The position numbers were made by a program, and so were the translations under genes. 64,000 nucleotides of DNA from Gordonia hankookensis. Lineage in GTDB: Bacteria > Actinomycetota > Actinomycetes > Mycobacteriales > Mycobacteriaceae. Positions 6,064 to 7,256 of the stretch are shown one piece after another (position 1 is the first letter of the stretch; the number at the start of each line of letters is the position of its first letter). Under the pieces are notes generated by a model. The model was not told the DNA's origin and did not search any database. It worked only from the letters and a program-made list of their open reading frames with translations. The stretch lies in the NCBI RefSeq assembly GCF_014673215.1, contig NZ_JACWMS010000002.1, positions 248,001 through 312,000 on the forward strand, read 5' to 3'.

Positions 6064-6144
6064 ACGCGGGTCGACCATGCAGACGCGGGTCGTCGACCAC
6101 CCGCGTTCGACAGGCCGACCCGCGTTTGCTCGGACGACCCGCGT
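6064..6144. repeat. Cluster of five ACGCGGGT octamers, left flank
   Basis: The octamer ACGCGGGT or its complement occurs at 6064, 6083, 6099 (inverted), 6118 (inverted) and 6137 (inverted). The copies at 6083 and 6099 form a 24-base near-palindrome (6083-6106) that is repeated base for base at 7195-7218 on the other side of the gene at 6211. The function is unknown: protein-binding sites, a REP-like element or transfer boundaries are possible. Confidence 0.75.
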
Positions 6145-6169
6145 CAGTCGAGTTGATCCGCGTTCCGAT

Positions 6170-6185
6170 ATCGGTGGGCACCGAT
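6170..6185. promoter_or_regulatory. Short perfect inverted repeat before the AbiEi-like gene
   Basis: ATCGGT and ACCGAT flank GGGC, ending 25 bases before the ATG at 6211. No Shine-Dalgarno sequence is visible there, so this hairpin or dyad may be an operator near the transcription start. Confidence 0.35.
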
Positions 6186-6210
6186 CTCAGCGCTGCTGCG
6201 TCCTACGTTC

Positions 6211-7137
6211 ATGACACCCTTCCCCACCGATCGCCATGGCCTGATCCATCGCGCTGCCGTTCTGTCCGCCCACTTCTCGGCCGACGAGTACCGGCGTGCA
6301 CTGCACACCAAAGAGACCATCTCCGTCGGCCGAGGCGTGTGTGTACCCGCGGGCCAGCGGTCCCCCACCGAATGGCACCGGCTGAAGGCCGTCGCGGCGT
6401 CGGTCACGAGCGATGTCGCCGCGACCCTCAGCCACCAGTCGGCCGCAGCGATCCACGGAGTCGAGATGCTGAGACCGAACCTGCGCCGCATCCACATGAC
6501 CACCGGCTCGCCGGACGGCGGCTATCGAACCACCACTCAACATCGACATGTCGGCACCTTCGGCCCCGACGAGGTAGTCGAGATCGAGGGTCTCCGAGTG
6601 ACCTCCCTGGAACGCACCGCGGTCGACGTTGCCTGTTCGAGTCCCATGGGATTCGCCGGGGCGTTGGCTGTTTTCGATTCCGCGTTGCGCAAAGGCGCAG
6701 ACCGCGAGGTGATGGCGGGGCTACTCGGCAGCAGGCGGCGCGGCGCGGCGCACGCGAGGCGGGCACTGCACCACGCGGACGGACTGTCGGAGAATCCGGG
6801 CGAATCCTGGGGACGCGCCCAGATGATCGAGGCAGGTCTACCGGTCCCCCGACTTCAGCACGAGTTCCGTGGCACCGGCGCGAACGTCATCGCGCGCACC
6901 GACTATGACTGGGCCGGACTTCTGGTCGGTGAGTTCGACGGAAGGGTCAAGTACGAGAAGCTGGTCCGTCCCGGCGAGAGCACCTCCGACGTCGTCATCC
7001 GCGAGAAGGCTCGCGAAGACGCACTACGTCGACTCGGCATCGTGGTGGTGCGCTGGACCTGGTCCGACCTGGAGAACGGTCGCGTCGTGGGCGTCATCCG
7101 AGAGTGGTTGACCCGACTCGCCATCATCGCGGCGTGA
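6211..7137 (+). CDS. AbiEi-antitoxin-like protein with DUF559/endonuclease-like C-terminus
   Basis: A 308-residue protein. The first 200 residues resemble the AbiEi-type antitoxin fold found in many actinobacterial orphan proteins (an N-terminal winged helix, then VTSLERTAVDVACSS). The C-terminal 100 residues (GEFDGRVKYEK, then VIREKAREDALRRLG and VVRWTW) look like the core of a DUF559/PD-(D/E)XK nuclease-like domain, with D, E and K in the expected order. No AbiEii nucleotidyltransferase toxin is adjacent, so it is not a complete AbiE pair. No clear ribosome site precedes the ATG. It sits between the dehydrogenase unit and hsaEGF with no metabolic link, bracketed by clusters of the same octamer repeat. 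Gain by transfer is possible; its role is unknown. Confidence 0.75.
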   Translation: MTPFPTDRHGLIHRAAVLSAHFSADEYRRALHTKETISVGRGVCVPAGQRSPTEWHRLKAVAASVTSDVAATLSHQSAAAIHGVEMLRPNLRRIHMTTGSPDGGYRTTTQHRHVGTFGPDEVVEIEGLRVTSLERTAVDVACSSPMGFAGALAVFDSALRKGADREVMAGLLGSRRRGAAHARRALHHADGLSENPGESWGRAQMIEAGLPVPRLQHEFRGTGANVIARTDYDWAGLLVGEFDGRVKYEKLVRPGESTSDVVIREKAREDALRRLGIVVVRWTWSDLENGRVVGVIREWLTRLAIIAA

Positions 7138-7156
7138 TCGGCAGCAGGCGACGCAC

Positions 7157-7256
7157 ACGCGGGTGCTGTTGTGGGACGCGGGTCGTCGGGCCTCACGCGG
7201 GTCGTCGACCACCCGCGTGGGCCGAACCCACCCGCGCGAGAGAAGACGACCCGCGT
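7157..7256. repeat. Cluster of five ACGCGGGT octamers, right flank
   Basis: ACGCGGGT or its complement is at 7157, 7176, 7195, 7211 (inverted) and 7249 (inverted), with a near-copy at 7230. Positions 7195-7218 are identical to 6083-6106. The cluster fills the whole gap between the AbiEi-like gene and hsaF, so it also covers the expected terminator region of both convergent genes. Confidence 0.75.

Follow-up and report, generated by a model that had tools for sequence, protein, structure and literature searches.

A family of genes for a nuclease-like protein unrelated to RAYTs probably forms, with the palindromes that flank it, a system organized like the REPtrons. Comparison of genome sequences shows that most family genes lie between two copies of an inverted palindrome made of a private word phased at 19 bp; that solitary copies of many of these palindromes (solos) are dispersed, mostly between genes, with palindrome type and gene type largely found in the same genomes; and that solos as well as whole units are gained and lost at orthologous sites. 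The nuclease itself may mobilize the palindromes. The locus described first, in a window of 64,000 nucleotides (the whole stretch of Gordonia hankookensis DNA that was analyzed; genome G000), is, on these alignments, one case of a family-wide pattern.

The preliminary description reported ten copies of the octamer ACGCGGGT, five on each side of one gene, and this was borne out: the window holds 11 exact copies, five at 6064–6144 and five at 7157–7256. The total is unremarkable (shuffles of the 64 kb give a mean of 6.07, and 5 of 100 reach 11), but the clustering is not, with a post hoc Poisson estimate of 6e-25 for ten copies in these two stretches. The 24-base near-palindrome ACGCGGGTCGTCGACCACCCGCGT, described as identical on both sides, is so (Table 1), and the pattern ACGCGGGT-N8-ACCCGCGT occurs at just these two places in the whole 5.22 Mb genome. 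Inside each orientation block the words are spaced by 19 or 38 bp, an exact period of 19 bp, and each array contains a one-mismatch word in register. Both arrays invert internally, the left one as two plus four words and the right one as three plus three. The left array ends 47–67 bp upstream of the start codon, and the right array starts 20 bp past the stop codon. Folded as single-stranded DNA, the left array (6064–6144) has a z of −6.2; the fold of the right array is modest (z −2.8), and its words are kept nonetheless. Chance clustering of GC-rich octamers is ruled out by the Poisson estimate together with the counts of the 19-bp period against shuffles given below. The phasing, the private words, the internal inversion, the words that fill the register with one mismatch, the dispersed solos, and the nuclease-like fold all go beyond the preliminary description.

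Table 1. Features of the window locus (positions in the 64-kb window)
Feature	Position	Strand	Basis or detail
AbiEi-like and Vsr/homing-endonuclease-like protein, 308 aa	6211..7137	+	profiles, fold comparison, alignment
AbiEi-type DNA-binding and NTase-like region, codons 1–190	6211..6780	+	
Nuclease-like domain, codons 195–305	6793..7125	+	E198, D231, E241, D243, K247 invariant in 47/47 aligned sequences
Left palindromic array	6064..6163	.	ACGCGGGT at 6064, 6083 (+); 6099, 6118, 6137 (−); one-mismatch sixth word ATCCGCGT at 6156–6163 (−)
Left array inversion	between 6083 and 6099	.	period 19 bp
Left-array 24-base near-palindrome core	6083..6106	.	identical to 7195–7218; two genome places only
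Right palindromic array	7157..7256	.	ACGCGGGT at 7157, 7176, 7195 (+); 7211, 7249 (−); one-mismatch word ACCCGCGC at 7230–7237 (−)
Right-array 24-base near-palindrome core	7195..7218	.	two genome places only

The AlphaFold model of the window protein has a pLDDT of 93.9. AbiEi profiles match residues 1–190, and in a fold comparison confined to Foldseek's own candidates these residues have an AbiEi fold and the C-terminal domain is of the Vsr/I-Bth0305I type (homing-endonuclease-like), with conserved acidic residues. Searching the PDB sequences with the 47-member profile gave no match at E ≤ 1, so it is the fold comparison that places the protein. The underlying alignment consists of the window protein and 46 relatives, from 52 of the best 80 that were offered; L025 was excluded for a stop codon, and L010, L022, L052, L060, and L086 were left out to shorten the list. 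DUF559 (PF04480) was found at E ≤ 0.01 in one of the 47 family members; the window protein has no match to it, and L007, a paralog in the same genome, reaches 12.1 bits against a gathering cutoff of 20.6. The gene's neighbors encode catabolic enzymes (an aldolase, an acetaldehyde dehydrogenase, a hydratase-like protein, and an acyl-CoA-dehydrogenase-like protein) and the unit holds a single gene, in agreement with the early remark that the gene is unrelated to its metabolic neighbors and lacks AbiEii. The median distance from the inner end of one palindrome to that of the other is 1002 bp (67 matched units), enough for one gene but too short to accommodate another of AbiEii size. An ordinary AbiE toxin–antitoxin pair is ruled out, as no second gene fits in these units and the window neighbors are catabolic.

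Pattern scanning of genome contigs confirmed at least 577 relatives, of which the best 80 were kept; the genera of these 80 we take to be actinobacterial throughout. Within the genus, 58 of 59 genomes have a family match at E ≤ 1e-10, and the window genome itself holds five copies (100, 51, 39, 33, and 34% identity to the window protein), all with palindromic flanks within about 190 bp. Four of these carry a matching left and right pair of palindromes, distinct from those found at the other paralogs; the fifth, L007, has two palindromic flanks that differ from each other. By eye, the 19-bp words of the other paralogs are GCGACCTC (L004), CCGCGACGG (L005), and CACCT (L006). No near-identical whole units occur among the five.

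This correspondence between flanks extends well beyond the window genome. After L001, L002, and L088 had been dropped as duplicates and L015, L036, and L041 for short flanks, 111 of 114 loci were usable, and their left–right alignment score has a median of 35.5, as compared with 9.5 for pairs from mismatched loci and 10.5 for stretches about 700 bp further out. Seventy-five of the 111 exceed the 99th percentile of the mismatched-pair control and 10 exceed its maximum, a value that stems from near-duplicate loci. With 29 near-duplicates removed, 67 of 82 nonredundant loci (164 flanks) lie above the 99th percentile and 43 above the 99.9th; the match fails in the remaining 15. Both flanks are palindromic in themselves at 54 of the 82 loci, compared with 8 of 162 stretches in the shifted control. 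A sample of the phylum, in which 33 of 296 genomes were positive at E ≤ 1e-30 (at most eight candidates scored per genome), supplied 29 further loci, 19 of which pass the same kind of test. Flank likeness (score above 20) holds for all 54 pairs of proteins at least 80% identical, many of them the same or orthologous loci, for 43% of 28 pairs at 70–80% identity, and for a fraction of 0.00 of pairs below 50%; the palindrome therefore changes along with protein divergence.

The 19-bp period is likewise a property of the family. A 7-base word recurs at a spacing of 19 bp with at most one mismatch in 131 of the 164 flanks; dinucleotide shuffles give 57.0, and stretches shifted by about 700 bp give 38.5 (scaled). 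The next largest spacing, 18 bp, is found in 83 flanks, against 51.0 in shuffles and 94.1 in shifted stretches. Distances between inverted words show broad peaks near 17, 36, and 54, that is, in steps of 19. The signal is weaker in the phylum draw, where 21 of 58 flanks show it against 5 shifted stretches, and a spacing of 21 bp has 25. Among 21 palindromes of the L005 type, conservation of the words (0.95–1.00) exceeds that of the spacers (0.905) and the loop (0.60). The 74-nt palindrome is about 87% alike among solos and flanks (solos average 86%), and 95.6% of its cells pair. Changes on both sides of a pair occur in 4 of 29 pairs, a number reached by 28 of 500 shuffles; the covariation score was reached by 0 of 500. 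As DNA hairpins, the six palindromes tested have z values from −2.8 to −13.7. Many L005-type solos (L178–L188, L199, L234–L244) carry a C-rich tract before the 74-nt consensus and a G-rich tract after it; since both are missing at L199-orthologous sites without the solo, the tracts arrived with or after it.

Queries with the palindromes of the window genome's own paralogs matched many other places in that genome and its near relatives. Counts for the L005-type palindrome, its two flanks included, are at least 13 (G000), 15 (G041), and 14 (G049), leaving at least 11, 13, and 12, respectively, beyond the flanks; with up to 15 candidates scored in each genome, the other 56 of the 59 genus genomes lacked any match at E ≤ 1e-8. 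G000, G041, and G049 are also the only ones of the 59 with the L005-type gene (E ≤ 1e-75), one copy in each; as these three form one clade, the coupling counts as a single event. When 12 palindromes were compared with 12 named genomes, every one of the matches listed was to the genome's own palindrome, except for four rows from Williamsia limnetica; these are of the L047 type, and an L047-type gene (80% identity) lies there between two copies. Counted by eye, there are at least 36 places beyond the flanks in Pseudonocardia spinosispora (L068), at least 32 in Nakamurella silvestris (L053), and at least 16, 6, 5, and 4 for L085, L047, L084, and L032, respectively. For L049, the matches listed in the same comparison comprise the two flanks only, and for L006, the query of its own genome and near relatives found no places beyond the flanks. 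By a GC3-based heuristic, 24 of 26 solos lie outside predicted genes, 11 of the 26 between convergent genes, 6 between genes of the same direction, 7 between divergent genes, and 2 in a setting that the heuristic did not assign. A counter-case is G024, which lacks a unit at the aldolase site yet has at least two ACGCGGGT-type solos (76–78% identity; two read). Among its nine family copies, the four that were read all have flanking palindromes built of other words, nearly perfect as a pair at L319 (CCACATGGGGAACTGACATCCAC), and none has ACGCGGGT words. Loss of the matching gene, leaving solos behind, would fit.

In these alignments most solos are old: 11 of 18 G000 solos, plus L193, have a counterpart at the same position in G049. 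The alignment covered eleven solo sites (L187, L189, L190, L192, L193, L194, L199, L238, L241, L242, and L244; L195, L234, and L236 fell outside the set). L199 is best read as a gain in G049, where the solo occupies a site that holds a homologous terminator-like hairpin both in G000 and in the more distant G041. L189 is a copy of the right end of the window unit, from just past the stop codon to the last word; it is flanked by 11-bp direct repeats (ACTGTATGAGG at both ends). The corresponding place in G049 is empty and has one sequence similar to the repeat. L189 is the only case with a clear direct repeat, and there is no constant target duplication. L187, L190, L192, L194, and L199 are polymorphic with messy ends. 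L187 in G041 looks like a deletion remnant, and L192 and L194, present in G000 and G041 and missing from G049, are best read as losses in G049. At L238, L242, and L244, solos of G041, the orthologous gaps hold other sequence or repeats, and for L241 the upstream side alone was found in the alignment. The flanks of solo L195 are 0.18 kb apart in G000, 0.8 kb in G041 (L229), and 4.3 kb in G049 (L230).

Whole units vary in the same way. At the aldolase site, the family gene is present in 8 of 30 loci (the G030 match covers just 199 residues), a single palindrome with a related outer word stands in G024 and in G033, G037 has a 17-bp gap, and 19 of the 30 lack both a family match and the fadE neighbor in the stretch read. 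The G024 and G033 solos between fadE and the aldolase share only the outer word ACGCG(G/A)G(C/T)C and not the 19-bp word pair, and are therefore not counted as proven remnants. The metG site was read in 30 of the 59 genomes: two have units (G000, G049), one a frame-broken unit without the right palindrome (G050), and one a solo with CCACCT words 19 bp apart (G040); seven are empty, with gaps of 9–84 bp, some with a short hairpin (G041, G017, G024, G054, G012, G033, G004). Four more have gaps of 1177–1366 bp without a family match, and 15 lack the same upstream neighbor and are not comparable. Empty sites, which the preliminary description had suggested seeking, thus exist in relatives, at metG in seven genomes and at the aldolase in G037. 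The two outcomes that it named as speaking against the idea were not found: the octamer clusters are dispersed, yet palindrome type largely follows gene type (G024 being the counter-case), and relatives do not all have the gene at one conserved position.

REPtrons (RAYT/TnpA-REP with REP palindromes) resemble this arrangement in having one gene per palindrome family, a palindrome-flanked gene, and dispersed intergenic copies, and are reported not to transpose as a unit (PMC6006769; PMC3733652). In both, several palindrome types can share one genome. Here, too, the gene is flanked by a palindrome type dispersed in the same genome, except for L006 and L049, for which no solos were found. The REPtron enzyme, however, is an HUH/Y1 transposase, whereas the family protein is of AbiEi plus PD-(D/E)XK/Vsr-like type, and its palindromes are, unlike REP, 19-bp-phased word arrays of roughly 50–150 bp. 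The five Pfam families found at E ≤ 0.01 in the 47 members do not include a Y1 transposase, which rules out RAYT identity; no HxH motif is invariant across the 47, and the GT[AG]G foot of REP palindromes is absent by eye from 19 L005-type solos and the window arrays.

The AbiE type IV toxin–antitoxin systems share with the family the AbiEi-type N-terminal DNA-binding and C-terminal domain, residues 1–190 having both the fold and the profiles. AbiE differs in its AbiEii toxin partner, for which the units here have no room, and the family differs from AbiEi in its added nuclease-like domain; AbiEi has two or four 23-bp repeats, whereas here words occur every 19 bp in arrays on both sides of the gene and at dispersed sites. 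AbiEi binds inverted repeats by its own gene, and neither AbiEi nor Rv2827c bound the other's repeats (PMC7319586). The catalytic fold and conserved acidic residues are common to the family, the Vsr-like homing endonucleases (I-Bth0305I), and the Vsr mismatch nicking enzyme. In the EDxHD pattern of Vsr-like enzymes a histidine stands where this family has lysine. Homing endonuclease genes lie in an intron or intein, or invade by cleavage an allele that lacks them; here the units sit between genes, and relatives have empty and solo alleles. Unlike Vsr-like homing endonucleases, the nuclease is fused to an AbiEi-type reader and its genes are free-standing, intergenic, and placed between palindromes. 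Titles and the starts of abstracts in open-access PubMed Central yielded no tie of AbiEi or DUF559 genes to flanking palindromes.

Three other explanations compete with a REPtron-like system. It is unlikely that the palindromes are operators only, the protein being an orphan AbiEi-type regulator with a vestigial nuclease that represses its own gene, with the copies downstream and at dispersed sites as targets of a small private regulon. Binding of AbiEi and Rv2827c to inverted repeats in their own promoters (PMC7319586) speaks for operators, as do the short distance between the left window array and the start codon and the 7 of 26 solos between divergent genes, where a promoter is possible. 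But in most units a second array comes right after the stop codon (median 4 bp in 67 units), solos between convergent genes outnumber the divergent ones, and the nuclease-type residues are invariant in 47 of 47 sequences. Least probable of the three is that the palindromes are bidirectional terminators, where the gene landed as a passenger and like sequences spread by ordinary recombination. Terminators have no need of a 19-bp word period, or of a private 74-nt sequence with about 87% likeness among solos and flanks; the right window array keeps its words though it folds modestly, and palindrome type largely tracks gene type. These points outweigh, in our reading, the intergenic and often convergent setting of the solos, the G049 solo standing in place of a terminator-like hairpin (L199), the strong hairpins, and the two-sided changes in L005-type pairs.

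That the unit is an ordinary small insertion sequence, having terminal inverted repeats and a PD-(D/E)XK transposase, with the solos as MITEs, seems a little less likely than operators alone. A length of about 1.2 kb, one gene, matching ends, and nonautonomous copies are all in keeping with it, and L189 combines 11-bp direct repeats with an empty site. Yet each end is itself a palindrome, so that in many loci the ends match in both orientations; the L005-type gene is single copy per genome, and the five paralogs of the window genome include no near-identical units; and target duplication is not constant. Mobile replicons argue against it as well: none of 50,697 phage records and 4 of 72,556 plasmid records have a family match, and no viral contig was confirmed. 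The same counts rule out a plasmid- or phage-borne module. Three Tsukamurella tyrosinosolvens plasmids (NZ_LR134451.1, NZ_LR134463.1, NZ_LR134465.1) carry distant protein relatives (31–38% identity), one of them annotated as an AbiEi family antitoxin.

In the REPtron-like reading that we prefer, several protein molecules would recognize the words by means of their AbiEi-type N-terminal halves, one molecule for every 19 bp; this would account for the phased array, and the inversion would set two rows of nuclease domains face to face. The Vsr/homing-endonuclease-like C-terminal domain may nick or cut at or beside the palindrome, with duplex, cruciform, or extruded hairpin as possible substrate. 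Repair or copying of the processed palindrome could then seed new copies at gene ends, sometimes replacing a terminator hairpin. Repression of the family gene by the upstream array, in the manner of AbiEi operators, is also probable. Of the steps in this mechanism, the one that leads from cutting to a palindrome at a new site is the least secure. Were the specificity of a protein to change, its palindromes would follow and the pairs would stay separate. Both ideas of the preliminary description, a small mobile or selfish unit and binding or cleavage sites of the protein itself, fit and are partly supported: the recurrence of arrays with private sequence and the unit, broken, solo, and absent states speak for a mobile unit, whereas movement by its own nuclease would be a further step; the fold, an AbiEi-type DNA binder joined to a homing-endonuclease-like domain, agrees with putative binding and cleavage.

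More generally, we lean towards the view that actinobacteria have evolved, independently of RAYTs, a class of nuclease–palindrome pairs, in which the reader would see an 8–9 base word every 19 bp, each paralog would have a private word, and the nuclease would seed palindromes between genes, reshaping gene ends and terminators. Private words would allow several orthogonal pairs to coexist in one genome. To our knowledge, the precedent for an enzyme maintained next to dispersed palindromes is that of REP elements and RAYTs, and the persistence of such pairs is an open question; a second, unrelated protein with REPtron organization would make it comparative and testable. The private words also offer a natural series of protein–DNA specificities, comprising dozens of diverged proteins with a presumed recognition sequence on both sides of each gene, and the pattern may account for genes that annotation calls orphan AbiEi antitoxins and for actinobacterial intergenic palindromes that so far lack an explanation.

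Some units are decaying, as family genes with internal stops indicate: L025 (5001–5912) has an in-frame stop codon, and eight further listed copies in the genus have one internal stop each. Several of the compared gaps hold repeats of other kinds. The G049 ortholog of the L190 site, which in G000 has a ACGCGGGT-type solo, contains a different repeat with CCCTTCGTGAC words (L224), and a GTCGAGTAGCCGCGAGCC-like sequence in the downstream flank of L194 recurs at many places in G000, G049, and G041 as another dispersed repeat. Long palindromes with CCTCGAAACC/GGTTTCGAGGCTC-like arms adjoin the aldolase in G004 (L128) and G032 (L126), neither of which yielded a family gene at this site. At two sites with L005-type solos in G041, G000 and G049 have other repeats (GACAGCAACCGATTTCCCG and GTTGCTGTCGGCGG; L249/L250 and L252/L253), as if gene-end sites were reused by different repeat families.
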